From: Nematopogon swammerdamellus
Lineage: Eukaryota > Arthropoda > Insecta > Lepidoptera > Adelidae
Reading direction: 5' to 3'
Length of the DNA stretch: 64,000 bases
Assembly (NCBI GenBank): GCA_946902875.1
Contig: OX336336.1
Coordinates: 25,623,558 to 25,687,557, forward strand
Below the pieces are notes generated by a model, which searched no databases, was not told where the DNA came from, and was given only the letters and a program-made list of their open reading frames with translations. Of the stretch, positions 7,114 to 40,510 are shown piece by piece. A program made the position numbers and the translations under genes. Within the stretch, counting starts at the first letter, position 1, and each line of letters begins with the position of its first letter.

Positions 7114-7252
7114 CTAGTTGAACTCTCTGTTGGGGAGGACGACGGGAGCGATGAGGGTCCACACGTAGATGGTGACGCAGCACCAAGACGAGATGATCTT
7201 GATCCACATCGAGCCGGTGTTGTAGTTCATGGACTCGAGAGATGAGCTCGGG
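7114..7252 (-). CDS. Serinc: Serinc exon 11 (C-terminus and stop)
   Basis: After the acceptor ATCGCAG the exon completes an Asn codon and reads [20 protein letters not shown] to NREFN and a TAG at 7116-7114. It encodes the last membrane helix and the conserved short C-terminal tail. Confidence 0.93.
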
Positions 7253-16200: not shown

Positions 16201-19200
16201 GCTCGTGCGCCGCACGCAGAACTCCATTTCGGCCCATACTGTTTCTATGAAGTATCTTTTGTCTCACGCGCCAGCGGTGTATTGCCGATCTCCATACATT
16301 CAGCATGGGAGACCCGCGTGCGCTCTCCGATTCCGCGCGGGGCGCGCGTTTACTCGCAAAAAAGTGTCTTGTGATCTATAAAATAAGGTCGAATTCACAT
16401 TCGTATTTATTTGGAGTACGATCTTTATGGTTTTAATGTAGGTATATTGTAAGATATTATTTATTTTGAGTGAAGTGAAGACTTCTCGTGGTATGGTAGT
16501 GCGGCACACGAGCGCACTTTAGGACCAGCCGCCAGTGCACACCGACTAGCATATATATTCGGCAAATAAAATAATAAGTGTGCCATTGATGGTACAGATA
16601 TCTCACCAGCGCGGGTGAGCCATACTTGTAGTTGTAATGCGTATAGATACGCATAGACACGTGCTCCTGTGTGCGTAAGCACAGATTACTTCATAGTTAC
16701 TTCGTAACAGATAAATCACTCCATAGAAAATGTTCCTACCTTCGGGCTTTAATAGCCTACTGCTTCACGTCGCCAATCGCTGCGTGCGAAAATGTACCAT
16801 AACGATCGAGTGTAAAGTGCTTATTGCTTTGCAGCTGCGCGCAGTTGCGTGGGCGAGCGTCTATGTATACTTCGCCCGGCTGATGAATTTCCACTGAAAT
16901 AGACCGCCGGCGGCCCGTCAGGCGGTAGGTAGTTAGCGCGCGCAAGTACATACAGTGCGTGAGGCCTGGCGTAAGTACATGTAGCGTTAGCAAACTCACA
17001 CACACACACAGGAGCGCGTGTCCTATACGCATTACAACTACAAGTATGGCTCACCCGCGTTTGTAAGATAAAACATCTGTATACTATCAATAATATGTGT
17101 TTTATTTAATAGGTACGAGTTCCCCGCAGCAAATCCCCGAGCTTTAGAAAGAGACCGTCCGGCTGTAGAGTCGTCACTGTTGCACAAACTTGCGTGTCTC
17201 TGTTCGACGGCGACGACGCTCTACAACCGGACTGTCTCTTTCTAAAGCTTGACACTCATTTTTTTACATACCATTTTATTGATTTGATATACCTTTCCTT
17301 AATTTTTTTAAAGCTAACCCTGGCATTTGCCAAAAAAAAGCAGCAAGTTTAAAATATAAAAAAAAATATGTTTAATTAAGCATATATTTTGCTCTATGAA
17401 AATATGAAAGGTGAATTTCGTTTTGAAAAAAAAAAAAAAAAAAGATTTGCATGTCAATGTTTCTACCCCTCATTGGCCGTTCCCGCATTTACGGAAACAT
17501 GATGAAAACGGTTGATAACTGAGACAAATTAGGTGCGATATTTTCCTTGTATTTTGACTTTAATGCAATAATAACAGGTTCACAAAGTATCGCACGCGAG
17601 ACATTGCCGGCGGTGGCGCTGCACCCGACTGAAGTCAGCTACGTATATGTACAGAGATATAAAGGTAGCCACATGGTAACATACACTGTATCCGGATAAT
17701 AAGGGTAAGCAGAGTAATTGGTGTTGCGCTGAACATACTCATGTAAATTACAGCACAACACCGACCACCGCGTTTCACAAAGTATTACGACAAGATCAAC
17801 AATCAAGCAGCAAGTGAGGCACGAAGACCCACCTGCTGCGTGACTCGGTGGAAGGACTGCGCCAAGGTGAGAGGTGGCTATCCTGTCGCCCTTTAGCGCG
17901 GCACCTTGTCCTTATCCCTTAGTCGCCTTTTACGACATGCAGCGGGGCTAATATTTTTAAGTACCGGCCCCACACAGTACGCGATAAAGTTGAGACAAAC
18001 ACTTAACTCTGTTACACTAGTATGCTGGATCTGGATGGATTTTTGTGACTATTTGATTGCCACAATTTTGGCTCTGATAGCAGCATCGAGCGTCCACGGA
18101 ACTAAATGTGTCATTTTAACTTCTTTGCTATTACAATCTGTCTGCACTTGCATGACATTCAGTTATGTGTCTTCTTTGCTTTTAAAATGGCAAGAATCAA
18201 ATTGCGCCAAATTAGCGAGTATCAAATCGGCAAAAATGGCGAGAATGAAATTGCGATAAATTAGCGAGAATAAAGTCGCAATAAAATGGCGAGAATGAAA
18301 TCGCGCCAAATTAGCGATTATGAAATTGGCAAAAATGGCGAAAATCTAATTGTGCCAAATTAGTGAGTAATTCGACAAAAATGGCGAGAATGAAATTGCG
18401 ATAAATTTTCGAGAATAAAGTCGCAATAAAATGGCGAGAAAAATTGCGCCAAATTAGCGATTATAAAATCGGCAAAAATGGCGAAAATCTAATTGCGCCA
18501 AATTCGCAAGTATCAAATCGGCAAAAATGGCGATAATCAAATTGCACCAAATTAGCGAGAATCTCATCGCACCAAAATGGCGAGAATCAAATCAGCACAA
18601 GAAATAATTGCCACTTTGTAAATTCCAGAGTACTACTATAAAATTATAGTTGAGTGATGGATGAGTGAAGCTGAATAGAGCGCGAGAAGTGTGCGTTCAC
18701 CTTTTTTTTTTTTTTTTGACAGCGCGACATGTGGCGCCGAGCCACCCATAAGGTGTCTAACGACGCCCATGGACATTCGGTCGTATGCGGGTGTTGCGAA
18801 TGCCATGCCGGCCTGACAGGTGCCCATTCACGCCCCTCTTGAAGGACCCGAGACTGTACTTGGGGGGAAATATAGTCACCTGAGTCTTGCCGTCGCTGTT
18901 CCCCGAGCCGGGCAGGAACGACGCGTTGCAGTTCTGGCCGGAGTTGGAGAGCGCCGACCAGGTCAGGTACACCGTGTACAGAGCCACCACCTATCGCAGT
19001 GTACGCTATATTATAGTTTTATTGTGTTATCCTCGGTAGCTCAATGGTGCGATCGTTCGATTGTCGTTCACGATCATGAGCACACCTGGGAGCGGTCAGA
19101 ACTTGCATGGGCGACCGTTCGACCGTTGGAGGCTGACCGTGCTACGGATCTCTGTAGGTCTCTTCCCCTTAAGGTAAGCCTTAATAAGTGATAGGGTTTA

Positions 19201-22200
19201 ACCCAACCGGGTTGGTACAACCGCACTGACTGAAAGTTCGGTCGAAAAGGCTATGCAATTCATTCATTTCCATCCAGTTCAGTGTAGCTGGTACGAACAA
19301 AGGAAAGCCACTGACACGGCACCTAGTTTACAAGGTATTCTGGTTTGACATCATGGATGTTGTAGGTGAGGTAGGCACCCATATCAGATTCCTTTTTTAT
19401 AATTTTTTTTTATTCTTAATTTTTTTTAAGGCTTTAGCCATTCCTGGCTATGCCAGACCCATAGTAACTATATTGGTATATCAGATTCCTTAAAAAAAGA
19501 CAGAATCTATAAAAAAAACAAAAATCACAAAAGTAGTTGTGTGAAATGAGTACGGCCTGTTCGCAAACCCGCGAGTAGAGTCGACGTAAGCGGCATACAT
19601 ACGGAAGACTGCAGAAGCCCGGAGCGGGGCTGCACCTCCTGCACGGAGGGCAGCACGGAGATGGCGCTCGCTATCACCACCAGGATCAGGTTGAACGAGA
19701 TGAAGAACTTGTTCAGGTCGCAGTTGTCGCCGTTCCGGCCCTGCGCACACGCGCGCAACACGCGTCATCATTATTATTTGGTAATAGTGTGCGACACTAA
19801 GGCCCACTTGCACCAACACAAATTTAATATATAAACCAGTTTAACTCGCTAAACCAGTTTAAGCTAGCACCCTTTGACTGTGGGAACCGCGTTTAAATCC
19901 ATAACTCGCTACTTAACTTTAAACTCGTGTTGGTGCAAGTGGGCCTAAGACCTACAACGATAAAAAAGTATGGACGCCGGACTGTCAAATGCTTGTATGG
20001 GAACTAGCGTCGCCGGGTTGCGGGGAGCGGAGTGTACTTACCGATGATAAGATATTCCACTATTGTGCACACTAAACTTGGCTGTGGTGTTTTTACACGT
20101 AAACACAGAGCATGCGGGCATTTTATACAGGTTTTTGCGAACGCGGCCGATGACAGACTGACGGGCCAGCGCGCGACCGTCCAATGAAACAAGTATGCTT
20201 TTACTTATATCGTGTTACGCTGGCGAGGATAGGGTTCGGGGTCCATACCTTTTTTATCGTTCTAGACTACGACCTTTCCAGGTTTATGGTTTCTTTTCCC
20301 CCTTATGACCTCTTCACGCTGACCCATGCAAGGCAATCCCTGTCACATCGAATTGAAAGTTCTTTTTTTATTATGTTCAGGAAAAAGGTTGTTTTTGTGA
20401 AAAAACTATGGTATTAGTATGAGGGGCTTGTTTAACTATTTGGTATTTAACTAGTTCAAATTTCAACAAGAGTCCATTATTTTCCTTTGGAAATGAATAT
20501 TTTAGTACGAGATGGTAGTATTATTTTGTAGCACGATTGAGACCTAGCATTTAAACCGTTATTACGTACTATACAAATGCAATGCCCAGTAAATTCACTG
20601 TTCATTTGGAAAATGCATGCTTTTGAACCATGTTTCATAGAAACAATTATAGAAATAAAATTTTAAACGCCACTGGGCAAAGCGCTCACGATTGCACGAG
20701 AAACTGTCCCGACAGATGGGGCAAAGCGCCTGGAACCAATTATCTGAAGACACCATCAGCACCCCCTCAATTAGTTAAAAAACCAATTAGACAAAAAAAA
20801 ACAGGCTCGCCACCTCTCACCTTGGCACGGTACTTCCACTGAGTCATGCAGCAGGTGGGTCTTCGTGCCTTACTTGCTGCTTGATCGATTTAATCTTGTT
20901 CGAATACTTTGCGAAACGTGGTGGTCAGTGTTGTGCTGTAATTGACCAGAGTTCTTGCAGCACAACACCGATTACTCTGCTTACCCCGATTGTCGGGATT
21001 CAGCGTGTATGATATGTCTGTATGTACAAAAAAAAAACAAAAAATACAAGTGCACTATAAAAACCGAAATCCATAATTTTTGCTTGCTTTAGCATCGCCT
21101 TCAACTCTAGGGTTAATTTTTTTTTTATTTCATACATTTTTATATTTTTTTAAATAGTTTTTTATTTCACAGTTTTTTTATATCGATTCATATTTTAATA
21201 CAATGACAGAGAAAATTTCAAAATCCTATTTAATACTTTTTAGGTCTGTGGTATAGTGCTGACGTATCGACATGCTTATGTTTTCTTACTGCTGAAAAAG
21301 TCCACACCACAAAAGTTTTGCTGAAGGTAACCACATACCGTAGTTTTTGTTGATTTTTAAAAAACCGCTGAATCAATTTCGATATAATTTATATGGGAAC
21401 ACCTCTGAAGTATGACCTACCAAACAAAAAAAGAATTTTCAAAATCGGCCCACAATTGACGGAGTAATCGTGTAACATAAAAAAAAAAACATACAGTTGA
21501 ATTGAGAACCTCCTCCTTTTGGGAAGTCGGTTGAAAACAGAATCCACACACCAGCTGTCAGCTGTCAGTGTTTCAAATAAATAAATATTGTGCGAATTGC
21601 GATCCGACAGCGGAGCGGCGGGGCAGGTGAAGCGTACATACGTTGGTGTAGAAGAGATACAGCAGCACGACGCCGGTGATGGCGAGCGCGTAGCAGATCA
21701 GCATCCCCAGCAACAGAGCGGCGTACCAGCACTTGGACTCGTGCTCCTCGTAGTTCGCTGTCCCAACGTCAACATCAACACATTAGTAGAGTTTCAGCGG
21801 CCTACCGTAGCACTCGGATCGTACACTACTAACAAGGGTCGACCGAAACTGACTTTTCATTCTCGGCCGAGACCGATACCGAGAATAGATAAATTATTTA
21901 AAAAAAATATTTATATGCGCAAATTTTGTATTATTATCTAATTAGCAGTTTTAATAAATATTACAGGGTTATCCATTTATAGAGGGGTCCATAAGTTGCA
22001 AATTTCCACTAAGTTTATCATGTAGACCGAGTTAAGAGATGAATTTTAGTGAAAGATTTGTTTGCCGGAAATGTGTAGTTTCGGAGAAAAGTTTTTTTCC
22101 CCATAGGAAATTAATTTTTCATACAAAATAAAAAAAATTAATTTTTTAAAGCACCAAAACATTGGTTTTGAATATATGTAAATGTATGTAAAAACAAGGA

Positions 22201-25200
22201 AAGTGGTATGGGTGAATGTATTGGTGGTTTAAAATAAAATAACCAGAGGCGGCGCATGTCGTTTTTGCATAAATTCCTATTCAAAATAAATGTTTTGGTG
22301 CATTAAAAAAAAAAAATCGAAAATTTATTTTGTATGAAAAATATTTTTTTCAAAATTTTTTTTCTCCGAATCTACACATTTCCGGCAAACAAATCTTTCA
22401 CTAAAATTCATCTCTTAACTCGGTCTACATGATAAACTTAGTGGGAATTTGCAACTTATGGACCCCTCTATAAATGGATATCCTATTACAGCACCAAAAA
22501 AGTTATTTTTTGGACATTTTTGCCCTTTAAAGACTGACTTCTCTCGTCGTACAACTGCCCAGCTCTGCTAAAGGGCTGTTCTTGAGCGGGACTTGGCATT
22601 GTTTTAACTTTAACCCTTTGGCCATAGCCACTCTTATATGCTTACCTCCCTTGAGTCCCATGCCATTTTCGCCGCGCGCGAAATTTTGGCGCGCGCATTC
22701 CCCCTGACCGAAATAATTAACTTATCATTAGTTGATGTTAAAAAACACCCCAACCCCGGGGGAGAAACATCCCGACTTGGCAACACTACAACACGCCATC
22801 TCACTATTATTATAGGTTGTCTCATTCTTAAACGAGATTTATCAGCGCCTCAATTGCTAGCTACATGCAACGAATTCAAGGTCAAACTTTTGTCTCTATT
22901 TGGTGAAGCCATATGAACCGAAGCGATTCGGCGCTTCACGTCTGTGTGCGTGTGCGAGCTGTGTGTGTATGGTGCTGCCGGCATTTGCGCCAACACACGC
23001 GCGTGGACAAGTACATGTGTATTGTATGCACTAACACATCTTTGGCGCAGAGTTGAAGTATTTTGTCAACAGACCCCCTTGCACCACCTCCCCGCGCCGC
23101 ACCGCCTCCGCGCCTCCGCGCCGACGCGACGCGAGACGTCCGCGTTTCGTCTATAATGTTCGGATCACTTTGGATACTTTTTAATTTTTTTTTCATGATA
23201 TTTTGAGATGATTTTTTTTCTTTACCTTCAAAATAATTAAGTGAGGTGGTGCTTCACTTGCTTCCCCTGGGGCAACGCCACTGCGGTCTACCGGTGTTAA
23301 CTTGCTCGCTGACTCACAATTAATTAATAATTTTTTGCAATCCACATGGCATAAGGTGAACCCCTGTTGTTGTTGTTGTTGTTGTTTTGGTTTGGGGTTG
23401 GCTCTAGGCCTGCAAACTAATCCCGCTTGGTTGGGGACCTTCGTGCAAAACCCCGCAGTCTCCAGCTACCCCAGCCAGCCTATGTCTTCCATGAAAGCCA
23501 CAAGTCGACCGGGTTGTCTGCAGGCCTTTTTTTTTTTTTATGGAACCTGCAAAATATTCTCCAAGCATCTCCAGCCCTCAGAGGCTAGAGATGGCTTGGA
23601 CAATTGTTTAATAGGTACTGCGGGGCTGGCATAGTCGCAAGGCGGCCAAAGTCCTAAAGATAAAAAAAGAACTCACACAAATACTCGCGGTATAAAAATA
23701 TATAATAAATGTAGGGATACTCACAGACCCAGGACTCGGCCCAAGTGTGGGCGAAGTCAATGATGAGCACCAGCTGGATGAGGATGAAGAGGAAACCGCC
23801 GATCATGCCGAAGTACATCCAGGTCACGCCGAACGTGGTGCCCGGGATGAAGAACGCACCGATTATGCCTCCGATCACCAGAAGGAACTTCAGGCCCCAG
23901 AATCTGTACAAATGCATAAGTAAATGAATGTATAAGTCAGGGGCGTGCATCCCATAAAGGCAGAAAAGCACTGCCTACCCTGAGTAAAATCCCAATTCCA
24001 CCCACCCAAACAATCAAATTAAAACGTACTGAACTTCTCGACTTCACTAAAAACATAAATTTGAATTTGCCGCGCGTTTCTGTCTAGCGCGCGCGGCGCG
24101 GGACGATCAGCGGCGCTCGCACGCTCCGCGCGGCAAAAGCAGGCGACATGATACCTGTCGGGCACGCACACTATTACTCAAATCCTGCGTCATATACGCT
24201 GCCTATACACTGGAATTGTGCGTTTGTATGCGTGTTTCGATGCGCGGTTTTACTAGGCAGGGTAGGCTAGCTTTCGACCCACTAACACCACTACAATCCC
24301 TCGTCGGTCGGTCGTGCGTGAGTGACTCGTGCCGCGTGCGCCCATGTGCGTGATACTCGATCGACACTGCACTAGTGTTTTAGCAGATGCGATCTTGATA
24401 ACTTGTGTGCGAGTACGTAGTATGAGCGACAGTACGAGTGAGTGTGTTTAAAATCGTGTTTTTCTCGAGGTTTTGATCACAAAAGTAGAATGGAGGGACT
24501 AGATTGTCAAGTGTGTGGTCTGATATGTCTCATAAAGTTAATACATCTATGTTTTTCAAAGTTCAAAAATATTTGAGTTTATGTACGGCACTGCACACTA
24601 GTCGTTGAGATTGATTCTGTTTAAATCACACAAAAGGCTTTTTTCAAAGCCACCCTGGATATCTGTATATATGACATGTCGTGTAACTGAAATTCATTCA
24701 TTTTATGGACATCTGAGGTGGCAATGAAACAAAAATCATCATCTGGAATTTCTTCATGTGGACACGAAGATGTGAGAGATGAAAACCGGGCTGAAAATGA
24801 AAGGGTAAGAGTAATAAAGTCCAACCTGTTTTTAAATTAAGTACCTACTTATTTTGAATCTTTCTTGCTGCCTGCCTACCCGGTCTCAAATGTCGGTGCA
24901 CGCCACTGGTATAAGTGGAGATGTAGTGAATGAATAGATTAAAAAAAAGTGCAGGTCATAAAAAACCAAACAGTTTTTTTTTTATTTGAGGACATATAAC
25001 AAAATCAATTTTATGGGGACCTGTCGATGAGCAGAAAAGAGATCTAACTTTTGGAAGAGTGTATGTAAAACTGCAAATAAATTTATAAAAAATTAATAAA
25101 TAAAGGAATACTGAAAAATCACTCCTTGAGATTGCAGCCTGGCGACCCAGCTGTTTTAAGGTACTCACTATACGCATATATGCCATTATAGAAAGCTAAT

Positions 25201-28200
25201 ATTTCCAAAACATCATTCCAAACTTTCACGAGGTGCTGCCCGATAGATAAGCAGAGAGGGTGAGGGAGGAGGGAGGGGGGAGCGGGGAGGAGGGCTGGGG
25301 AGGAGGGAGGGGTAGGGGAAGTGGGAGTCGAGTGACGAGGAGAGGAGGGGCGGGAGGAGGGAGGGGGAGGTGTAGGAAGAATGGAGGAAGGAGGGGAGGT
25401 GGAGAGTTAGGGGGGAGGGTCACGCTATAGAAGCATATGTAGTAGAAGTATAGCTTAAGTAGTACATATAAGAACAAGCACCTTTTTTTTCTCAAATTTA
25501 TTTGCAGTTTTAGATAAGCCCTTCCAGAAGTAAGACGTGCTGTTAGTATCGGACCCTTAAGATGGAAAGTAGGCTTACCCGTTTTGGACGCCGGCTCGGG
25601 GATCCTTGGAGGAGCGAACGCCGATCATGATGAGCGCCATCAGCACGAAGAACAAGCACACGGCGAAGCATATCCTGTCGCGCGGCACCAGACACAAAGT
25701 TAGGTTAAGTTACAAGTGGCTGAGACGGAGGGGCCAAAGCACATGCTGCGACTAGCAAATATCACCTCCGCGAAGGTAGGTGCCTAGGCTATACTGGCCT
25801 AGAGGAGAACACAGCCGAGGCTGCTATGAGGCCATCTTACATACAGTACGGTGGTACCAACCAAGTCGGATTATCAGGTGTCCCACGACACCCCACCTTT
25901 TTTTACTGTAAAGCGGATTATCCGGATTTTCGTCTATAAGGACTACCCCCCTGGTACCAATTAATCCGGATAATCGGGGTTCTACTGTACTTGCATATGA
26001 CTCCCTTCTTAATTACTAGGTGGTAGGGTTTAACCCGCCCGGGTAGGTACCACCGCACTGAATGAAAGGTCGGTCGAAACGGCTATGTAAATATTTTGCG
26101 TTTTCCGTCCAGTTCAGTGTAGCCGGCACGGCCGAAGGGAAGCACTGACGTGGCACCAAGTTCACCCGGTGTTATGGGCTGACATCACGGATGTTGTAGG
26201 TGATGTAGCCAACCGTGCCAGTTTCCATAAAAAAATAAATAAAAAAAAAACTATAATATCTATGAAAAATTAAATTTCCCTACAAATTTTCTTGACGGCT
26301 CTTCTTCGTGGGTGTAAAGCAAACCGGATAGAACAAATTGTGACACGTTCGAATGCAGTCTCAACTGCCATAAGAATGCTCAACAAACAATAAACAACAA
26401 TAGCATTACTCACCGATATACAGCGAGGTGCCCTATAGCGCCGTCGCAGTCCACCTGGTAGGAGCCCGGCACGTACCCGTTCGTACTGTTCACACAGAAC
26501 GGCACCTACGCGGGACAATACAGAAATGTAAACAGATACGTCATATTTTGCTAATGGTTGTCTGAGTAGGTATATAAGGTGTTTCGTTATTCATATAGTT
26601 TCTTTCAGGGGGTTGTTCTGTATACATCCTAAACTGAGTAACTTTTGTTCTATAGCTTTTGGAAATTGAAAAAAAAAAAAAATTCACTTTCCCCATACAT
26701 TTGGAGGTTAGGTCTGCCCTTAACCCTTTCGTCGCCGGGACCGCTAGGGCCCAGTCATGCGCCCAGGCCAAGGCTTTACGAAACTTCCACCGTACTACTA
26801 CTACAATTAAACATATTTTTGAAAGCACTTTTCAAAATCACATATGTGTGCGCCTGGCCTCACAAAATGACTATAGGCGCACACAAATATGTGCGACTGG
26901 CGCCACCTATTTATATGAAAGCACTTTTTCTAAATCACATATGTGTGCGCCTGGCCTCACAAAATGACTATAGGTGCACACAAATATGTGCAACTGGCGC
27001 CGAAAGGGTTAAATGTATGGAGAAAGTGAATTTTTTTTCCAATTTCCAAAAGCTGTAGAACAAAAGTTACTCAGTTTAGGATACAGAACAACCCCCTGAA
27101 AGAAACGACATGAATAACGAAACACCTTATATAAGAATTAATAAAATATGTATGTATGTATGCATGCCCCAACGACATAGGCTGACATTCATTGTCGAAT
27201 GTTCGAAGCTTAGCACTGTCTAACTAAGCTAAGCACGAGTCCGATTAAAGTTCACTAACATTTTGTACAGGACTCTCATAGTCGAGACTAACGCTTAGAA
27301 CGAACTATGCTAAGCCAAGTAATAGTCCAAGTTAAACTTCACTTTTTTTCTTTTCCTGGTGATTCACCATCGTGGTGGATCGCACCATTGCTCATACTGA
27401 AATATAGGGTGTTTTTCGTAGGGTGTTTTACGCACGCTGTCAGTCAAACCAACGTCACTGGACACTGGCAGTAATAAACAAATTTCCTATTCGTTTGGTT
27501 GCCACTATTTAAAAAAAAGAAATAACCTGTCGTGAGGGGACAGGACAGCCAGTGTGTCAATGCTCTGTGTATTCTATTCTGCGCTACTCCCTCATTTGTA
27601 CTAAAATGAAAGAGACAGAAAACTCGTAAGTTTGCTGTCGAGGCTAAAGTCATCGTAAGACTAGACTTGGACTTGGCTTAGTTTTCAAACTCAAAGACAG
27701 TTGCTTTGCGTGCTGTTTGAACTCAGAGACGAACTAAGCACGCTCGTTGCGACTATGAATGTCACTCATAGAGTCCTAATAAGGACCTTAACAGGACACT
27801 GCAGACTAAACAAACACCTACACCGAATGGGCCTTAGCGACAAACCGGTGTGCAGGTTCTGTATAAAAGAGGATGAAACGCCCGTACACATCCTTTGTGA
27901 ATGTCAAGTGCTCATTCACAGTAAAAGGCGTATTCTTGGGGGTAACATTTTCAACACATGTCAAATACAGGCACTCAACCCCAAGAATATAACTGGGTTC
28001 AAAGCGGAAATCGGACTTGGGGGTGAGCTATAAACTTTTGAGAGATCACAATATATCTTCCTAGGTCACAGTGACAACAGGGCTCAGAGGGCTCCTGACT
28101 CTCTCTTTAAATCTTAATCAGCAGGGGCACGCCGAGCAGCACAGCGACACGGCCGACGTCGCGCAGCAACATGCCGACTCATCTTACATGCGGTACTTAC

Positions 28201-31200
28201 GTGCTTGAGTGCATCGTGGAGGCCCGGCGAGAGTGTGATGCAGGCGGCCACGGTCACCAGCAGCAGCATGAGCGCGTACATCAGCCGGCTCGAGGTGGAG
28301 TTGGTGCCGCTGGGGCACGCCGAGCAGCACAGCGACACGGCCGACGTCGTGCAGCAACGTGCCGACTCATCTTACATGCGGTACTTACGTGCTTGAGTGC
28401 ATCGTGGAGGCCCGGCGAGAGTGTGATGCAGGCGGCCACGGTCACCAGCAGCAGCATGAGCGCGTACATCAGCCGGCTCGAGGTGGAGTTGGTGCAGCTG
28501 GGGCACGCCGAGCAGCACAGCGACACGGCCGACGTCGCGCAGCAACGTGCCGACTCATCTTACATGCGGTACTTACGTGCTTGAGTGCATCGTGGAGGCC
28601 CGGCGAGAGTGTGATGCAGGCGGCCACGGTCACCAGCAGCAGCATGAGCGCGTACATCAGCCGGCTCGAGGTGGAGTTGGTGCAGCTGGGGCACGCCGAG
28701 CAGCACAGCGACACGGCCGACGTCGCGCAGCAACATGCCGACTCATCTTACATGCGGTACTTACGTGCTTGAGTGCATCGTGGAGGCCCGGCGAGAGTGT
28801 GATGCAGGCGGCCACGGTCACCAGCAGCAGCATGAGCGCGTACATCAGCCGGCTCGAGGTGGAGTTGGTGCAGCTGGGGCACGCCGAGCAGCACAGCGAC
28901 ACGGCCGACGTCGCGCAGCAACATGCCGACTCATCTTACATGCGGTACTTACGTGCTTGAGTGCATCGTGGAGGCCCGGCGAGAGTGTGATGCAGGCGGC
29001 CACGGTCACCAGCAGCAGCATGAGCGCGTACATCAGCCGGCTCGAGGTCGAGTTGGTGCAGCTGGGGCACGCCGAGCAGCACAGCGACACGGCCGACGTC
29101 GCGCAGCAACATGCCGACTCATCTTACATGCGGTACTTACGTGCTTGAGTGCATCGTGGAGGCCCGGCGAGAGTGTGATGCAGGCGGCCACGGTCACCAG
29201 CAGCAGCATGAGCGCGTACATCAGCCGGCTCGAGGTGGAGTTGGTGCAGCTGGGGCACGCCGAGCAGCACAGCGACACGGCCGACGTCGCGCAGCAACAT
29301 GCCGACTCATCTTACATGCGGTACTTACGTGCTTGAGTGCATCGTGGAGGCCCGGCGAGAGTGTGATGCAGGCGGCCACGGTCACCAGCAGCAGCATGAG
29401 CGCGTACATCAGCCGGCTCGAGGTCGAGTTGGTGCAGCTGGGGCACGCCGAGCAGCACAGCGACACGGCCGACGTCGCGCAGCAACATGCCGACTCATCT
29501 TACATGCGGTACTTACGTGCTTGAGTGCATCGTGGAGGCCCGGCGAGAGTGTGATGCAGGCGGCCACGGTCACCAGCAGCAGCATGAGCGCGTACATCAG
29601 CCGGCTCGAGGTGGAGTTGGTGCAGCTGGGGCACGCCGAGCAGCACAGCGACACGGCCGACGTCGCGCAGCAACATGCCGACTCATCTTACATGCGGTAC
29701 TTACGTGCTTGAGTGCATCGTGGAGGCCCGGCGAGAGTGTGATGCAGGCGGCCACGGTCACCAGCAGCAGCATGAGCGCGTACATCAGCCGGCTCGAGGT
29801 GGAGTTGGTGCAGCTGGGGCACGCCGAGCAGCACAGCGACACGGCCGACGTCGCGCAGCAACGTGCCGACTCATCTTACATGCGGTACTTACGTGCTTGA
29901 GTGCATCGTGGAGGCCCGGCGAGAGTGTGATACAGGCGGCCACGGTCACCAGCAGCAGCATGAGCGCGTACATCAGCCGGCTCGAGGTCGAGTTGGTGCA
30001 GCTGGGGCACGCCGAGCAGCACAGCGACACGGCCGACGTCGCGCAGCAACGTGCCGACTCATCTTACATGCGGTACTTACGTGCTTGAGTGCATCGTGGA
30101 GGCCCGGCGAGAGTGTGATGCAGGCGGCCACGGTCACCAGCAGCAGCATGAGCGCGTACATCAGCCGGCTCGAGGTGGAGTTGGTGCAGCTGGGGCACGC
30201 CGAGCAGCACAGCGACACGACCGACGTCGCGCAGCAACGTGCCGACTCATCTTACATGCGGTACTTACGTGCTTGAGTGCATCGTGGAGGCCCGGCGAGA
30301 GTGTGATGCAGGCGGCCACGGTCACCAGCAGCAGCATGAGCGCGTACATCAGCCGGCTCGAGGTGGAGTTGGTGCAGCTGGGGCACGCCGAGCAGCACAG
30401 CGACACGGCCGACGTCGCGCAGCAACGTGCCGACTCATCTTACATGCGGTACTTACGTGCTTGAGTGCATCGTGGAGGCCCGGCGAGAGTGTGATGCAGG
30501 CGGCCACGGTCACCAGCAGCAGCATGAGCACGTACATCAGCCGGCTCGAGGTGGAGTTGGTGTAGCTGGGGCACGCCGAGCAGCACAGCGACATGGCCGA
30601 CGTCGCGCAGCAACGTGCCGACTCATCTTACATGCGGTACTTACGTGCTTGAGTGCATCGTGGAGGCCCGGCGAGAGTGTGATGCAGGCGGCCACGGTCA
30701 CCAGCAGCAGCATGAGCGCGTACATCAGCCGGCTCGAGGTCGAGTTGGTGCAGCTGGGGCACGCCGAGCAGCACAGCGACATGGCCGACGTCGCGCAGCA
30801 ACGTGCCGACTCATCTTACATGCGGTACTTACGTGCTTGAGTGCATCGTGGAGGCCCGGCGAGAGTGTGATGCAGGCGGCCACGGTCACCAGCAGCAGCA
30901 TGAGCGCGTACATCAGCCGGCTCGAGGTGGAGTTGGTGCAGCTGGGGCACGCCGAGCAGCACAGCGACATGGCCGACGTCGCGCAGCAACATGCCGACTC
31001 ATCTTACATGCGGTACTTACGTGCTTGAGTGCATCGTGGAGGCCCGGCGAGAGTGTGATGCAGGCGGCCACGGTCACCAGCAGCAGCATGAGCGCGTACA
31101 TCAGCCGGCTCGAGGTGGAGTTGGTGCAGCTGGGGCACGCCGAGCAGCACAGCGACACGGCCGACGTCGCGCAGCAACATGCCGACTCATCTTACATGCG

Positions 31201-33192
31201 GTACTTACGTGCTTGAGTGCATCGTGGAGGCCCGGCGAGAGTGTGATGCAGGCGGCCACGGTCACCAGCAGCAGCATGAGCGCGTACATCAGCCGGCTCG
31301 AGGTGGAGTTGGTGCAGCTGGGGCACGCCGAGCAGCACAGCGACACGGCCGACGTCGCGCAGCAACGTGCCGACTCATCTTACATGCGGTACTTACGTGC
31401 TTGAGTGCATCGTGGAGGCCCGGCGAGAGTGTGATGCAGGCGGCCACGGTCACCAGCAGCAGCATGAGCGCGTACATCAGCCGGCTCGAGGTGGAGTTGG
31501 TGCAGCTGGGGCACGCCGAGCAGCACAGCGACATGGCCGACGTCGCGCAGCAACATGCCGACTGTGTGCACATTATATACATTATAACTGTGTAGACAGC
31601 AACAGTTCCCGCCAAAAACCCCTCCATACCACCCTTGCTCACTCATCTTGCGGGTAGGTTGAGGCCGAGTCGCAGACTGCATACTGCAACTTCGCAGGGA
31701 TATCGGCTCCCTACGTGTGTTCTATCGCTTATTCCATGGGGAGTGCTCGGAGGAGCTCTTTAACACGATCCCGCCGTCCCCTTTCCACCTCCGCACCACG
31801 CGCTCTGGGCAGGGTATGCATCCCTACTTAGACACCTTATGGGTGGCTCAGTGCCACATGTCACACTTTCTATGACAAAAAAGACACAGAAAAAAAGGGG
31901 AAAGAGTTAGGGTCGGGCGAGCACTTGCGCGAGGACTAGACGATCTTTATCGCTGGAGACCCCGTGTCGCGCTAAAAACGGAATAAGATATACGTGTGGA
32001 AGTGCAGTGTGCGTACGCAAACAACGAAAAAGACGTTAAAATCTAGTGATAAGGTATCGATCGGAGCGAGAGTGAAGCCGCTTTCCATAGTCTGGACTTC
32101 CTTCCGGAGGTGACCATGGGACTCGGAGATCTGCTAAGTCGGGTGAGTGAGTGAGTTGCTTTAGCCATCTTTCTCTCGCCTCATTTGCCTCTGCGCTGAG
32201 TACCACAGTTATAAGTGCTACTTACAACATTTTTGAAATTCGACTGTTTACATATACCTAAAACATAATATGGTGTTTGACATCGATGTCTATTTTATAG
32301 ATTGGCCCATCCCATACATCACTCCCGAAAAAATATGTTCTCGACGAGACCTGCATATAATGCAGATTTCACGGACAGCCGCTTCATACGGCGTGTGCGG
32401 CGCGTGTTGAACGCACGCAGGTCTGTATCGAGTCGGTGACGCGTGTGTGCAGCATGCCCGATTGCTGTTAGAAAGAGTGACAGTGACAAACGTTGTTGTT
32501 TGTTTCGCCTGAGCTTGTTATGGCGTGTTAAGAAGCCATGCTGTCACGGATAGGATCGTGTGACGGTGGTATCGCGTTCTCGTTCTCGCTTGCCTGCTGG
32601 TGATGGGAGTGGGCGGAAAGACGGCAAACGCGCCGGTGGGCGAGCGATGATGTCTTTCTCGCTCGCTCTTGTCATCTGTGGGCAAGTGGGGGCGGGAGCG
32701 CGATAGCACCGTCGTAGGGATTGTGTCACGTATCACAATACTGAGTGTGAATGCACGCTCACTTGTACCGACGTCTAGCACAAGTTGCATCGTACGACGT
32801 TTGATCTATAAAATAGACATCGATGGTGTTTGACAATACTTTTGCATAATTATCTCTCAAGTGTTTTTATGATATGACGCACCGATTGCGTAGTGACTAA
32901 TCCGTAGATTCAACTGTGCCGTGCATTTGTGGGGCTTGGCTCGATTTCCTCGAGTGACACAAAAAAAAAAAAACAATGGCGGACCAGACAACCGTCTGTC
33001 CACATTCACGGCGCAAATCTTTGATCCTTTATCTTGGCAAACACACGACGAGGCCACACATAGCTACTTCAGTGGCTGGCTCGCACGGATAGCACTGCAG
33101 TAAGTGTTATCTGGGGGGTCAACAAGATACAAACAAAGAAGATTACAGCGACTTACCAGGGCCGTCGAGAAGAGACCGAGCACTGCCCCCAT
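7114..33192 (-). CDS. Serinc: Serine incorporator (Serinc/TMS1 family), complete gene, 11 exons
   Basis: The coding exons join in frame as 33157-33192, one 165 bp copy of exon 2 from the 28201-31561 array, 26414-26505, 25579-25674, 23725-23903, 21642-21757, 19603-19740, 18880-18990, 14735-14867, 8172-8310 and 7114-7252. The sum is 1344 nt, 447 residues, close to the usual family length. Family landmarks in order: [12 protein letters not shown] start, cysteine-rich [72 protein letters not shown] and a PNREFN end. Serincs are multi-pass (about 10-11 helices) membrane proteins linked to phospholipid scrambling and serine-lipid biology; some vertebrate members restrict retroviruses. The oddity is the 18-fold tandem exon 2. 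The start ATG has an insect-like CAAC context. Intron phases were checked at every junction. Confidence 0.95.
7290..7425 (+). repeat. Dispersed repeat family X, fragment
   Basis: Carries the markers GTGGGTCTTTGTGCCTTACTT and, further on, GCTTACCCCGATCG...CAGCGTGTGGTATGTATG seen in at least six other places (9105, 17690 minus, 20790, 36655, 48350, 60925). It looks like a retroelement-derived tail; type not known. Confidence 0.5.
7560..8035 (+). mobile_element. Jockey/CR1-like LINE 3' end (family J)
   Basis: Plus-strand reading gives decayed [12 protein letters not shown], then PRRLP-like, then YSLG-F-RGVNGHL, the typical C-terminus of Jockey-like ORF2, followed by a 3' UTR ending AATAAAAAAAA. 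At least six other copies in the window share this end (18712 minus, 31690, 43785, 45065 minus, 51385 minus, 57655). It lies in Serinc intron 10. Confidence 0.7.
8172..8310 (-). CDS. Serinc: Serinc exon 10
   Basis: Encodes [20 protein letters not shown], then [20 protein letters not shown] and TLTNWY. The donor is CAA|GTGAGT. Two in-frame acceptors are possible: GTAG at 8311-8314 (exon start 8310, favoured because DGADGG fits the family spacing) or GTAG at 8326-8329 (exon start 8325, adding five residues). Both keep frame. Confidence 0.9.
8456..8857. mobile_element. MITE with GGGTGAATCAAC termini, copy 1
   Basis: Terminal inverted repeats GGGTGGATCAACTTTTTC and GAAAAGTTGATTCACCC bound a 402 bp non-coding element, flanked by AAAT on both sides (8452-8455, 8858-8861). 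An internal palindrome GGGGACAATTTTGTCCCC is present. A second copy without its right end lies at 14962-15276. It sits 145 bp upstream of the Serinc exon 10 acceptor. Confidence 0.75.
8980..9075 (+). mobile_element. tRNA-derived SINE head (family L)
   Basis: Contains a pol III A box (TGGCCGAGTGG) and B box (GGTTCGAATCC) in tRNA-like spacing, then GTCGGCGTG and a T-rich stretch. The same head occurs at 36111-36040 (minus), 40913 and 41963, so it is a SINE and not a tRNA gene; the acceptor stem does not pair convincingly. Confidence 0.75.
9105..9510 (+). repeat. Dispersed repeat family X
   Basis: Contains GGCGACTAAG, CTTCGTGCCTTACTTGCTGC, GTGGTGGTCAGTGTTGTGCT and GCACAACACCGACTACTCTG, all shared with other family X copies. 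An open frame beginning at 9305 is embedded in the repeat and is not credible. Confidence 0.55.
9780..10115 (+). mobile_element. Family X end plus composite SINE body and tail (5'-truncated)
   Basis: From about 9889 this matches the body and 3' end of the full-length SINEs at 19029 and 62608 (CACTGAATGAAAGGTCGGTC, TTCAGTGTAGCCGGCA, GATGTTGTAGGTGATGTAGC, TTTCCATAAAAAA). The pol III head is missing. Confidence 0.7.
10116..10585. other. AT-rich interval in Serinc intron 9, nothing recognised
   Basis: No exon, repeat or coding frame of note was seen here. Confidence 0.4.
10590..11000. repeat. Tandem repeat, about 105 bp unit, four copies
   Basis: The block TTGACAGATATTGTATGGGG...GTCACATAACGTAACTTCAGA...CTTTCATCCAGTCACT recurs about every 105 bp with roughly 10-20 percent divergence. 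It is non-coding. Confidence 0.7.
11240..11634 (+). mobile_element. RTE-clade LINE, C-terminal ORF fragment
   Basis: Reads [49 protein letters not shown] and [16 protein letters not shown], the highly conserved C-terminal tail of RTE-type endonuclease/reverse transcriptases. It is 5'-truncated, with its frame still open over about 130 codons, which suggests a fairly young insertion. Confidence 0.85.
12108..12342. mobile_element. Foldback element, long inverted arms
   Basis: GAGTGTTTTCATTTTACGAA at the left is the reverse complement of the right end, and the arms continue inward through GTAGGAAGTGGTG and GAGCTCAGTAG with a short loop. There is no coding sequence. Confidence 0.8.
12597..12842. 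mobile_element. Foldback MITE, nearly perfect hairpin
   Basis: The left arm starts GGGTGTTTGATGACTATAG and the right arm ends with its complement. The arms pair for about 110 bp (with AGGTACTCCTGAGCCTATTT in the stem) around an AT-rich loop. Confidence 0.85.
13130..13705. repeat. Tandem repeat of about 106-110 bp with an internal hairpin
   Basis: Five to six units share CAATATCAATTTTATAATTT and CTACGGACAATAAAAAAA. At each unit junction GCCCGTGGTCCAC and GTGGACCACGGGC form a hairpin around AGGTGGACTGAGCAG. Later units have a length divisible by three, creating an open frame from 13438 that is a repeat artefact. Confidence 0.8.
13775..13960 (+). mobile_element. LINE C-terminal fragment (zinc-knuckle tail), decayed
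   Basis: Reads NRCAGSA-like shifting to CRFC-type: [20 protein letters not shown] and the following lines match the LINE fragment at 27664-28118. Frame is interrupted. Confidence 0.65.
13961..14734. other. AT-rich interval before Serinc exon 9, no gene
   Basis: Only low-complexity AT-rich sequence is seen. A 111-codon open frame at 14074-14409 (minus) has no recognisable domain and is probably chance. Confidence 0.4.
14735..14867 (-). CDS. Serinc: Serinc exon 9
   Basis: Encodes [20 protein letters not shown], then [20 protein letters not shown] and EGNS with one extra base. The acceptor is TGTCTCAG and the donor TCAG|GTGACC. It carries one predicted membrane helix followed by a polar cytoplasmic loop. 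Confidence 0.93.
14962..15276. mobile_element. MITE with GGGTGAATCAAC terminus, copy 2
   Basis: About 90 percent identical to 8456-8765, in the same orientation, including GGGGACAATTTTGTCCCC. The right terminal repeat is absent. Short LINE pieces flank it (14930-14955 resembles 27846; 15270-15350 resembles 28060), so it inserted into LINE debris. It begins 95 bp upstream of the Serinc exon 9 acceptor. Confidence 0.7.
15270..15350 (+). mobile_element. LINE 3' end fragment
   Basis: TGACAACAGGGCTCAG and the following bases match the 3' end of the LINE at 28050-28118. Confidence 0.55.
15580..16537. mobile_element. Non-autonomous hAT element with 8 bp target duplication
   Basis: Termini CAGTGGCGGCTGGT and ACCAGCCGCCAGTG are inverted repeats (one mismatch) flanked by identical 8 bp CACACCGA at 15572-15579 and 16538-16545. 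The 8 bp duplication and CAGTGGCG end are hallmarks of hAT. There is no transposase. A tRNA-like SINE at about 15935-15995 is nested inside. Confidence 0.88.
15935..15995 (-). mobile_element. tRNA-like SINE head
   Basis: The minus strand has TTGGTTAAAGG (A-box-like) and GGGTTCAATTCC (B box) about 30 bp apart, then an A-rich tail. No clear cloverleaf acceptor stem was found, so a SINE is more likely than a tRNA gene. Confidence 0.55.
16568..17100. mobile_element. Foldback element, about 530 bp
   Basis: GGTGAGCCATACTTGTAGTT near 16614 recurs as its reverse complement near 17045, and similarity extends outward through AATAAAATAATAAGTGTG. The interior is GC-rich and non-coding. It directly follows the hAT element. 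Confidence 0.65.
17134..17245. repeat. Inverted repeat, 110 bp
   Basis: AGCTTTAGAAAGAGAC at the left pairs with GTCTCTTTCTAAAGCT at the right, and CTGTAGAG/CTCTAC continues the stem. It is a compact hairpin of unknown origin, possibly a very short MITE. Confidence 0.6.
17246..17689. other. Intron 8 sequence, nothing recognised
   Basis: AT-rich, with an A run at 17427-17444; no repeat family or exon was identified. Confidence 0.35.
17690..17970 (-). repeat. Dispersed repeat family X, minus orientation
   Basis: Contains the reverse complements of the family X markers (GGTAAGCAGAGTAATTGG, CAGCAAGTGAGGCACGAAGA, CCTTAGTCGCCTTTTACGAC). Confidence 0.55.
18184..18605. repeat. Degenerate tandem repeat, about 30-33 bp unit
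   Basis: Alternating blocks such as AATGGCGAGAATGAAATTGC and CCAAATTAGCGAGTATCAAA repeat about 13 times with many substitutions. It lies in Serinc intron 8. Confidence 0.75.
18712..18876 (-). mobile_element. Family J LINE 3' end abutting the Serinc exon 8 donor
   Basis: In minus orientation this reads [20 protein letters not shown] and then the family J 3' UTR. Its upstream limit coincides with the splice donor of Serinc exon 8 (exon end 18880, donor GTGACT, LINE-like sequence from about 18874). Confidence 0.75.
18880..18990 (-). CDS. Serinc: Serinc exon 8
   Basis: Encodes [20 protein letters not shown] and [17 protein letters not shown] in phase 0 (37 codons). The acceptor is GCGATAG and the donor [18 protein letters not shown] is a family signature. 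Confidence 0.94.
19029..19408 (+). mobile_element. Full-length composite SINE with tRNA-like and 5S-like promoter parts
   Basis: Starts with CTCGGTAGCTCAATGGTG (tRNA A-box-like), continues with a 5S rRNA-like stretch (GGTCAGAACTTGCATGGGCG, decayed relative to the copy at 62608), then the shared body and a T/A-rich 3' end. It lies in Serinc intron 7. Confidence 0.7.
19603..19740 (-). CDS. Serinc: Serinc exon 7
   Basis: Encodes [40 protein letters not shown] and GLLQSS in phase 0 (46 codons). The acceptor is GTGCGCAG and the donor TCC|GTATGT. Confidence 0.94.
19797..19948. mobile_element. MITE with AGGCCCACTTGCACC termini
   Basis: TTAGGCCCACTTGCACCAAC at the right (as complement) and AAGGCCCACTTGCACCAAC at the left form terminal inverted repeats about 150 bp apart. 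There is no coding sequence. I recall similar short elements in other moth genomes. Confidence 0.8.
19949..20789. other. Serinc intron 6 sequence, no feature recognised
   Basis: Mixed AT-rich sequence without a recognisable exon, repeat or domain. Confidence 0.35.
20790..21030 (+). repeat. Dispersed repeat family X
   Basis: Contains GTGGGTCTTCGTGCCTTACTT, GTGGTGGTCAGTGTTGTGCT and GCACAACACCGATTACTCTG. Confidence 0.6.
21040..21545 (-). repeat. Dispersed repeat with a GAGAACCTCCTCCTTTTGG end
   Basis: The right end TTGAGAACCTCCTCCTTTTG...GTCGGTTG and the left part (TAGCATCGCCTTCAACTCTA) are shared with 58200-58615 in the opposite orientation. It is a common interspersed repeat, class uncertain. 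Confidence 0.55.
21642..21757 (-). CDS. Serinc: Serinc exon 6
   Basis: Completes a Ser codon then encodes [20 protein letters not shown] and [18 protein letters not shown]. The acceptor is GGGACAG and the donor AAC|GTATGT. It contains one membrane helix. Confidence 0.93.
21963..22487. mobile_element. Foldback element with long arms, 525 bp
   Basis: Arms of about 130 bp at both ends are reverse complements (for example GTCTACATGATAAACTTAGT at the right), and weaker pairing continues inward. The interior is AT-rich and non-coding. Confidence 0.85.
22611..22735 (+). mobile_element. Fragment of TTAA-terminated (piggyBac-like) MITE
   Basis: Begins TTAACCCTTTGGCC and then matches the terminus of the elements at 48775 and 59212 (GCTTACCTCC, TTTTCGCCGCGCGC, AAATTTTGGCGCGCGC). 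Confidence 0.6.
22790..23283 (-). mobile_element. hAT element fragment, related to 35109-36602
   Basis: The right end, read on the minus strand, is CAGTGGCGTTGCCCCAGGGG followed by AAGTGAAGCACC, matching the start of the 35109 element. Internal similarity extends to about 22790. The other terminus is missing. Confidence 0.7.
23355..23530 (-). mobile_element. LINE 3' end with (CAA)n tail (family Q), copy 1
   Basis: The minus strand ends in a CAA repeat and encodes decayed WLGSWRS-type sequence; near-identical copies are at 57840-58190 (minus) and 61018-61165 (plus). Confidence 0.65.
23725..23903 (-). CDS. Serinc: Serinc exon 5
   Basis: Encodes [20 protein letters not shown], then [20 protein letters not shown] and [11 protein letters not shown]. 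The acceptor is TGTACAG and the donor TCT|GTGAGT. This is the best conserved block of the family, with two membrane helices. Confidence 0.95.
23938..24908. mobile_element. Non-autonomous hAT element, 971 bp, 8 bp target duplication
   Basis: Ends CAGGGGCGTGCA and TGCACGCCACTG, flanked on both sides by GTATAAGT (23930-23937 and 24909-24916). There is no transposase. It lies in Serinc intron 4. Confidence 0.9.
25248..25425 (+). repeat. Homopurine G-rich tract in Serinc intron 4
   Basis: About 175 bp is almost entirely G and A on the plus strand, with many runs of three to seven G, interrupted by few pyrimidines. The transcribed RNA (minus strand) is the C/U-rich partner. Confidence 0.85.
25579..25674 (-). 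CDS. Serinc: Serinc exon 4
   Basis: Completes an Arg codon then encodes [20 protein letters not shown] and [12 protein letters not shown]. The acceptor is GCGACAG and the donor CGG|GTAAGC. SSKDPR is a family signature after the second or third helix. Confidence 0.95.
25725..25860 (-). mobile_element. Family L SINE body fragment
   Basis: Matches, in reverse, the body of the SINE at 41963 (GGCTGAGACGGAGGGGCCAA, AAGGTAGGTGCC, GAGAACACAGCCGAGGCTGC). Confidence 0.6.
25995..26245 (+). mobile_element. Composite SINE body and tail, 5'-truncated
   Basis: Same body as 9889-10115, ending in TTTCCATAAAAAA. It is preceded by a pogo-like terminal sequence (AATCCGGATAATCGGGGTTC, TACTGTA) at 25965-25990. 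Confidence 0.7.
26414..26505 (-). CDS. Serinc: Serinc exon 3
   Basis: Encodes [20 protein letters not shown] and [10 protein letters not shown] plus two bases of Arg. The acceptor is CGCGTAG and the donor ATCG|GTGAGT. It starts in phase 0, which fits the phase-0 end of any full exon 2 copy. NST is a potential N-glycosylation site in a luminal loop. Confidence 0.93.
26565..27133. mobile_element. Foldback element with nested TTAA element
   Basis: Outer arms (ATAAGGTGTTTCGTTATTCAT at the left, complementary at the right; also CAGGGGGTTGTTCTGTAT) pair for about 140 bp. Between them lies the TTAA-bounded element at 26729-27012. Confidence 0.8.
26729..27012. mobile_element. TTAA-bounded element carrying the 97 bp repeat
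   Basis: Begins TTAACCCTTTCGTCGCC and ends GGCGCCGAAAGGGTTAA, so terminal inverted repeats sit on TTAA target sites as in piggyBac. Inside are about two units of the 97 bp repeat that also forms the array at 61998-62600. Confidence 0.75.
27134..27663. other. Serinc intron 2, nothing definite
   Basis: No exon or known repeat was recognised; a few short direct repeats around CTAAGC are present. Confidence 0.35.
27664..28118 (+). mobile_element. LINE C-terminal fragment next to the Serinc exon array
   Basis: An open segment reads [40 protein letters not shown] and then a tail; C-x2-C...H...C at the end of LINE ORF2s is typical of clades with an RNase H region. The 3' end directly adjoins the truncated 19th copy of Serinc exon 2 at about 28119. 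Confidence 0.75.
28201..28365 (-). CDS. Serinc: Serinc exon 2, most 3' complete copy (copy 18 in transcript order)
   Basis: Complete 165 bp copy nearest exon 3. It carries three private or rare changes (Ala6Thr, Cys20Gly, Cys3Arg), so it is the most diverged copy, consistent with an array edge that escapes homogenisation. Its donor GTAAGT is intact. Confidence 0.6.
31397..31561 (-). CDS. Serinc: Serinc exon 2, most 5' copy with the real upstream acceptor
   Basis: Encodes [40 protein letters not shown] and [15 protein letters not shown] (55 codons, phase 0 at both ends): the cysteine-rich N-terminal segment and first membrane helix. The acceptor GTGCACACAG at 31562-31571 is outside the repeat unit, and the donor is CAC|GTAAGT. 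This copy is the best candidate for the exon normally used. It has Cys at residue 3 and Met at residue 10. Confidence 0.92.
31690..31880 (+). mobile_element. Family J LINE fragment, internally deleted
   Basis: Reads TATCGGCTCCCTACGTGTGT, CTTATTCCATGGGGAGTGCT ([15 protein letters not shown]), then jumps to the 3' UTR (ACACCTTATGGGTGGCTCAG). It lies in Serinc intron 1. Confidence 0.65.
32281..32825. mobile_element. Non-autonomous hAT-type element in Serinc intron 1
   Basis: Terminal inverted repeats CATCGATGTCTATTTTATAG and its complement are flanked by identical 8 bp GTGTTTGA at 32273-32280 and 32826-32833. The interior is 545 bp, GC-rich and non-coding. Confidence 0.88.
33157..33192 (-). CDS. 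Serinc: Serinc exon 1 (start codon)
   Basis: ATG at 33192 reads [12 protein letters not shown] and meets the donor CTG|GTAAGT in phase 0. MGAVLG is the almost invariant Serinc N-terminus. The context upstream of the ATG is CCAAC. Confidence 0.94.
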
Positions 33193-37249: not shown

Positions 37250-37845
37250 TTGCGTGAACACACTCTACCTCAGCCGGTGTGCGACAGCGTGAACACACTC
37301 TAACTCTGCCGGTGTGCGACAGCGTGAACACACTCTAACTCTGCCGGTGTGTGACAGCGTGAACGCACTCCAACTATGCCGGTGTGCGACAGTGTGAACA
37401 CACTCTAGCTCTGCCGGTGGGTGACAGCGTGAAAGCACTCTAGCTCTGCCGGTCTGCGACAGCGTGCACACACTCTACCTCTGCCGGTGTGAGACAGCTT
37501 GAACACACTCTAACTCTGCTGATGTACGACAGCGTGAACACACTCTAACTCTGCCGGTGTGCGACAGCGTGAACACACTCTAACTCTGCCGGTGAGCGAC
37601 ACCGTGTACGCACTCTACCTCTGCCGGTGTGCGACAGCGTGAACACACTCTTAACTCTGCCAGTGTGCGATAGCGTGAACGCACTCTAACTCTGCCGGTG
37701 AGCGACAGCGTGCACACACTCTAACTCTGCCGGTGTGCGACAGCGTGAACACACTCTAACTCTGTAGGTGTGAGACAGCGTGAACGCACTCCAACTCTGC
37801 CGGTAAGCGACAGCGTGAACACACTAGCTCTGCCGGTGGAAACCA
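37250..37845. repeat. Minisatellite, 36 bp unit, about 16 copies
   Basis: Unit GCGTGAACACACTCTAACTC plus TGCCGGTGTGCGACA, diverged by a few bases per copy. Since 36 is divisible by three it yields a 12-residue repeat frame on the minus strand, which is an artefact. Confidence 0.9.
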
Positions 37846-39880: not shown

Positions 39881-40510
39881 GACGTTTACATATACCATGT
39901 TACGTATATACGTGCTCGCTACGCATTTACATATACCATGTTACGTATATACGTGCTCGCTACGCATTTACATATACCATGTTAAGTATATACGTGCTCG
40001 CTACATGTTTACGTATACCATGTTACGTATATACGTGCTCGCTACGCATTTACATATACCATGTTAAGTATATACGTGCTCGCTACATGTTTATGTATAC
40101 CATGTTACGTATATACGTGCTCACTATTATATACGTGCTCGCTACGCCTTTACATATACCATGTTGAGTATATACGTGCTCGCTACATGTTTACATATGC
40201 CATGTTACGTATATACGTGCTCGCTACGCATTTACATATACCATGTTAAGTATATACGTGCTCGCTACATGTTTATGTATACCATGTTACGTATATACGT
40301 GCTCACTATTATATACGTGCTCGCTACGCCTTTACATATACCATGTTGAGTAATACGTGCTCGCTACATGTTTACATATGCCATGTTACGTATATACATG
40401 CTCGCTACGCATTTACATATACCATGTTGAGTATATACGTGCTCGCTACATGTTTACATATGCCATGTTACGTATATACGTGCTCGTTACGCGTTTGCGT
40501 ATACGCTACG
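39881..40510. repeat. Tandem repeat, 41 bp unit with higher-order structure
   Basis: Basic unit TTTACATATACCATGTTACG plus TATATACGTGCTCGCTACGCA. Units with CGCA and CATG ends alternate, giving an 82 bp dimer, and a larger 182 bp period (including an insertion CACTATTATATACGTG) is duplicated at about 40079 and 40261. It sits just beyond the 3' end of the PANK4-like gene. Confidence 0.9.

Follow-up and report, generated by a model that had tools for sequence, protein, structure and literature searches.

The Serinc gene of the moth Nematopogon swammerdamellus (Lepidoptera; Adelidae) carries its second coding exon in 18 complete tandem copies, which raises the question of whether one copy is chosen per transcript or whether the array is a satellite of coding sequence lying within an intron. 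Here we report an analysis of the locus and its neighbourhood, according to which the extra copies are most likely removed as intron and the array looks like genome instability rather than a new route to protein variants. The initial annotation of the locus had left both options standing; the intronic satellite is retained, and the choice of one copy per transcript is not.

Sequence and analysis

The sequence studied, referred to as the window, is a stretch of 64 kb of contig OX336336.1 in assembly GCA_946902875.1 (C4:25623558-25687557) with a GC content of 0.436. The contig (C4) measures 29.7 Mb in a genome of 699 Mb and 39 contigs. Serinc lies on the minus strand and was assembled as 11 exons with GT-AG splice sites, encoding a stop-free protein of 447 amino acids; its exon borders and reading frame were predicted from the sequence and not from RNA. 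The protein matches lepidopteran Serinc over its full length at 65-73% identity (named proteins among the best 120 of 2,328 relatives in a protein search), and in a midpoint-rooted tree it is basal in a clade of 65 tips, itself counted (support 0.999), whose named members are all Lepidoptera. The alignment comprised 119 of 121 homologues, two (P0001 and P0012) being left out for length. TRF arrays were considered if they had a period ≥60, a copy number ≥1.9 and a GC content ≥0.60. The features discussed are listed in Table 1.

Table 1. Position, strand and character of the features at the Serinc locus and of the MED14 arrays (positions in the window unless the piece L013, C4:25697558-25707557, is named).
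Feature	Position	Strand	Remarks
Serinc exon 1	33157..33192	(-)	not amplified; one match in window
Serinc exon 2, copy 1	31397..31561	(-)	adjoins native acceptor (GTGCACACAG); putative working copy
Copy-1 spacer and exon-2 copies 2-18 with spacers	28178..31396	(-)	17 more full copies, period 188; putative intronic satellite
Truncated exon-2 copy 19	28119..28177	(-)	start of exon 2 followed by foreign sequence
Non-LTR retrotransposon, 3' part	27665..28118	(+)	zf-RVT match of 25.5 bits, under the Pfam cut-off of 27.5
Serinc exon 3 (VPFCVNST...)	26414..26505	(-)	not amplified
Serinc exons 4-11	7114..25674	(-)	single copy each
MED14 exon 2, copy 1	51949..52176	(+)	complete; native acceptor and donor
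MED14 exon-2 array	51991..52666	(+)	3 copies; 228-bp unit of last 186 bp of exon and 42 bp of intron with donor
MED14 exon X (160 bp)	L013 2191-3869		9 copies at 187 bp; 27-bp spacer
MED14 exon Y	L013 5266-5709		2 copies at 232 bp; mirror form, first without donor, last complete

Structure of the Serinc array

Apart from exon 2, the Serinc exons each match the window once (10/10), and no convincing tblastn match to a second canonical exon 2 was found in the window outside the array. A whole-genome DNA search with 382 bp of the array, which worked at the level of DNA similarity and skipped very common words, placed nine of nine matches at the Serinc locus. Unit comparison and TRF (28119-31563, period 188, 18.3 copies, 99% matches, score 6722, far above chance) bore out the annotated layout, a 165-bp exon repeated 18 times at an exact period of 188 bp. 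Every complete unit is exactly 188 bp long and consists of the exon and the spacer GTAAGTACCGCATGTAAGATGAG (minus strand), whose annotated length of 23 bp is correct and whose sequence is identical in all 18 copies. Copy 1 begins at 31561, the units run to 28178 with the last donor at 28200, and a stub extends to 28119. Coding capacity and splice donor had been described as intact throughout, and all 18 exon copies do have an open frame and a GTAAGT donor. The truncated 19th copy was likewise recovered; it retains 59 nt with 96.6% identity to copy 1. Some 5 bp separate it from the 3' terminus of the non-LTR retrotransposon piece, so that the distal end of the array was probably lost. Tails related to this piece occur at 13772-13905 and 15269-15322.

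The copies differ at nine sites, in agreement with the handful proposed earlier: the known ones at exon residues 3, 6, 9, 10, 20 (two sites) and 31 are joined by silent sites at residues 23 and 42. Over 153 pairs the identity averages 99.0%, 18 pairs are identical, no pair differs at more than five sites, and copies 1 and 4 have the same sequence. The variants of site 7 are split 9:9 and clustered (6 runs, p=0.04), and copies 11-12 equal copies 13-14 in sequence; both patterns are expected under unequal exchange or gene conversion.

The junction between units (GATGAG/TCGG) and the native junction (CACACAG/TCGG) have an AG in common. A comparison of the array junction with viral contigs gave no match, and a search for public proteins that read through the spacer gave one (71% identity over 63% of the query), with no evidence of an array elsewhere. 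The Serinc unit contains no G4 motif built on runs of three G; a single G4 candidate built on two-G runs lies antisense to the gene.

Splicing of the Serinc array

The native CAG acceptor is present at copy 1 only, and copies 2-18 follow GAG; with a terminal AG in every copy's spacer, the array has 18 nominal acceptors, one of them native. An acceptor inside the array combines GAG with a pyrimidine fraction of 0.38 and is preceded by the purine-rich 23-nt spacer, which starts with the preceding donor. The 11 predicted acceptors used as reference (10 of Serinc, one of MED14) are CAG or TAG with pyrimidine fractions of 0.44-0.81. The native exon-2 acceptor is itself weak, with a fraction of 0.50 that is not above several others, so that the contrast in acceptor quality depends mainly on CAG versus GAG.

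When exon 1 is joined through the copy-1 acceptor to the sequence up to donor k, the frame is open at k = 1 and reaches a stop at codon 103 for every k from 2 to 18 (17/17). The annotated scheme, 18 possible donors after one acceptor, is therefore rejected. The use of copy k would require acceptor k, a GAG located 23 nt beyond a donor; pairing that acceptor with the donor of its own copy leaves the frame open for all 18. The intron from a donor to the adjacent next acceptor would measure 23 nt and, to our knowledge, insects do not splice introns of about 23-27 nt. Introns of about 25 nt are known in ciliates, according to the part of PMC5014332 used here. The stops reached from donors 2-18, the GAG acceptors and the 23-nt intron together make exon 1 - copy 1 - exon 3 the likely path of the Serinc transcript.

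The 17 extra donors might nevertheless act as decoy U1-binding sites in intron 2 that tune Serinc output through the stop and subsequent decay. That each of them leads to the stop at codon 103, and that spacer and donor are unchanged in all 18 copies, would suit such a role, but nine variable sites placed at random would leave the 23-bp spacer unchanged with a probability of 31%, and we regard regulation by decoy donors as improbable.

Variation among the copies

Of the nine variable sites, seven alter an amino acid and the other two leave the protein unchanged. Under neutrality about 67% of changes would alter the protein, 31% would be silent and 2% would create a stop, so that alterations would make up about 68% of the altering and silent changes combined (p=0.73); the variation among the exon-2 copies looks neutral. 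Position 15 is cysteine in 118 of the 119 homologues and is changed to arginine (Cys15Arg) in nine of the 18 copies; Cys32, found in 118 of 119 homologues as well, is lost in copies 6 and 18. Both cysteines are retained in copy 1. The neutral-like variation and the loss of cysteines argue against 18 working variants.

Copy 1 itself departs from the residues that are near-invariant (shared by at least 95% of the 119 homologues) at 5 of 29 positions, as against 5 of 162 in exons 3-11 (Fisher test, p=0.008, for a post hoc contrast among mutually related homologues). The departures are L13S, G18A, S19T, C22M and K67H, and position 22 is cysteine in all 119 homologues. Array-to-gene conversion could be the cause of this divergence. 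The unamplified exon 1 departs at one of four near-invariant residues, so the shift may be a trait of the whole N-terminus.

A transcript might also join a donor to a non-adjacent acceptor and thus repeat the exon, yielding proteins in which the first membrane helix occurs at least twice in frame. As a symmetric exon (phase 0-0, 165 nt), exon 2 would preserve the frame at any copy number, and introns of 211, 399, 587 nt and so on would be available; the acceptors are poor, however, and the copies carry no sign of selection, which leaves exon repetition a low probability.

That the length of the array, or its existence, is an error of assembly is quite improbable. The copy number given here is that of the assembly and not of raw reads, and copy number alone could be off, but the nine sites differ in the pattern described for site 7 and for copies 11-14, three more exon arrays lie nearby on the same chromosome-scale contig, and an exact 188-bp unit cut at the exon border would be unexpected from error.

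Choice of the Dscam type works by pairing between docking and selector RNA, and the complementarity of the Serinc spacer to intron 1 and to the rest of intron 2 does not exceed chance expectation, with longest runs of 9 and 10 (p 0.96 and 0.77, 200 shuffles). Mutually exclusive choice of one of the 18 copies as a means of diversifying the Serinc N-terminus is thus highly improbable: all copies are open, have the same phase, strong donors and a terminal AG, and can each be read from their own acceptor to their own donor, and Dscam1, as treated in the part of PMC9013439 used here, likewise has many tandem copies of one coding exon of which presumably one is used per transcript, but the moth spacers, 23 bp long in Serinc and 27 bp in MED14 exon X, would be too short to splice as introns, a single acceptor is native and the others are purine-rich GAG, and the variation is neutral-like, with half of the copies lacking a near-invariant cysteine.

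Exon arrays in MED14

The finding of the initial annotation leaves out an exon array of MED14 in the window and further MED14 arrays just beyond it. Exon X and the start of exon Y, the exon that follows it, correspond to residues 498-559 of MED14 in solved Mediator complexes (7ena, which we take to be the human Mediator structure; E about 8e-5). Some 1.5 kb upstream there is a Med14 RM3 domain (E 2.7e-18). From the Serinc array to array Y the distance is 51.6 kb. All four TRF arrays that pass the thresholds in 150 contiguous kb (C4:25587558-25737557) are coding exons. The same thresholds returned no array in 13 arbitrarily placed 10-kb pieces from eight other contigs, which were set at round coordinates irrespective of exon content and provide counts rather than a rate. 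The units of the four exon arrays have a GC content of 0.64-0.71 and a CpG observed/expected ratio of 1.0-1.2.

In the MED14 exon-2 array, copy 3 has a stop (TGG to TAG) and two other amino-acid changes. Copies 1 and 2 differ in five codons, all silently, which plain neutrality of copy 2 does not predict. In exon X, the donor and the CAG acceptor tail are present in all nine copies, and the variable sites comprise three changing and two silent ones.

A donor is carried in the unit of three arrays (Serinc, MED14 exon 2 and exon X) and an acceptor in two (exons X and Y). A unit that brings a donor and no native acceptor would be harmless if the first copy is used, as may be the case for Serinc and MED14 exon 2, and one that brings an acceptor and no donor would be harmless if the last copy is used, as may hold for exon Y. 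Such a first-copy or last-copy rule would fit three of the four arrays, exon X being the exception. All copies of exon X have acceptor and donor, so the first-copy logic is weaker there, and at 160 nt the exon would keep the frame at certain copy numbers only.

Comparison with known systems

Exon stuttering was described by Hron et al. (2026; PMC12954441), in the parts of the paper used here, as the direct tandem repetition of border-spanning parts of an exon in the adjacent intron. In the chicken it affects 236 introns in 115 genes, with 190 introns located on dot chromosomes and 46 elsewhere; arrays hold 1-44 copies (median 4), exon matches span 20-187 bp (median 36), and GC-rich coding sequence is named as a possible correlate. 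The case displayed consists of imperfect tandems with less than 20% edit distance. These parts present it as a peculiarity of birds that goes with GC-rich dot chromosomes, apart from an unpublished note about gerbils.

In comparison with that description, the moth arrays share the defining anatomy of exon stuttering and would work in the same way. The repeated segment spans an exon border and includes a splice site in four of four arrays, the copies lie in the adjacent intron, the exons are GC-rich and the copies many (2-18), the coding region of the host gene is intact (Serinc, 447 amino acids with no stop), more than one exon of a gene is hit, and other local tandem repeats are near. The moth differs from the birds described there in that the host is an insect, with the arrays on a 29.7-Mb contig rich in TE-like repeats and not on a small, repeat-poor dot chromosome, in that the whole exon is copied in two of four arrays (165 and 160 bp), and in that copies within each of the two large arrays share about 99% identity and repeat at an exact period. 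Exon stuttering as reported in those parts goes with differences in intron length between individuals, and the moth case is represented by one assembly. Searches of the open-access literature, judged by the titles and abstract starts of the best matches, gave no report of exon arrays of this kind in insects, nor any invertebrate case; within the open literature searched, no paper on Serinc and exon duplication and no second paper using the term exon stuttering were found.

In the general model of intron gain, exonic sequence that is duplicated in tandem supplies additional splice sites. The Serinc array differs from the intron gain by tandem genomic duplication treated in the part of PMC4974935 used here, since no new intron arises within the exon and the copies lie in the existing intron 2. 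It resembles the satellites of Drosophila gigantic introns, as covered in the part of PMC6508621 used here, in being a satellite in the intron of an expressed gene, and is unlike them in that the repeated unit comes from the gene itself and comprises a coding exon together with its donor.

Origin of the arrays

The locus is probably best explained by recent local amplification of the exon-stuttering type, in which copy 1 is spliced, the remaining copies form part of intron 2, and a regional or wider mutational process is at work. The first step would have been a tandem duplication of the complete exon 2 together with the initial 23 bp of intron 2, and the AG shared by the two junctions is compatible with a first duplication mediated by microhomology. 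Spread and homogenisation may then have proceeded through unequal exchange or gene conversion, as the pattern among the copies suggests. Exon 1 would be joined to copy 1, which has the sole native acceptor, and the copy-1 donor to exon 3, so that copies 2-19 would leave with intron 2 and Serinc would stay intact. As three exons of the neighbouring MED14 are likewise arrayed, the process may be a regional or wider one that acts on GC-rich exons.

More tentatively, and with considerable doubt on our part, this process, regional or genome-wide, might turn GC-rich exons into satellites, by way of border-crossing units of 187-232 bp (about the length of one nucleosome), and feed mutations back into the gene by gene conversion. 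If this is true, exon stuttering extends beyond vertebrates and has a consequence for how proteins evolve, and the working Serinc exon 2 would already bear the mark of feedback in its departures from near-invariant residues. The presence of four arrays in two neighbouring genes on an ordinary large chromosome suggests that the GC-rich exon itself, and not the type of chromosome, is the cause. The near-perfect units with whole exons make the mutational mechanism, the splicing rule that would shield the gene, and back-mutation from array to exon directly testable. Such arrays also call for caution in annotation and should not be taken for splice variants.

Other repeats in and near the window

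TRF repeats occupy 13.5% of the window, of which 40% is the Serinc array, versus 6.5% of 190 kb of further sequence. GC-rich direct repeat pairs were also seen by self-comparison in the pieces L009, L019 and L020 (GC 0.53-0.58); one pair in L009 (4363-4648 and 7321-7608) is 289 nt long, 89% identical and 3 kb apart, with a GC content of 0.55. A GC-rich direct repeat pair in L014, whose two copies are interrupted by stops in each of the six frames, was rejected as a coding array and resembles a TE.

Within the window, a palindromic unit of 97 bp is repeated in tandem at 26820-27001 (about two copies) and at 62009-62599 (about six), the two sets being 96-99% alike and in opposite orientation. 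An inverted repeat pair at 26571-27133 (132 nt, about 89%) surrounds the first set, an arrangement reminiscent of a small inverted-repeat transposon that contains a tandem repeat. Further tandem arrays are located at 13137-13702 (106 bp), 37252-37838 (35 bp), 39885-40504 (41 bp) and 46591-47227 (28 bp). A fragment of a retroelement integrase core domain (rve) lies at 3946-4515, and a repeat of about 184 bp at 51173-51356, possibly a SINE, has six more copies in the window at 90-96% identity and one weaker copy.
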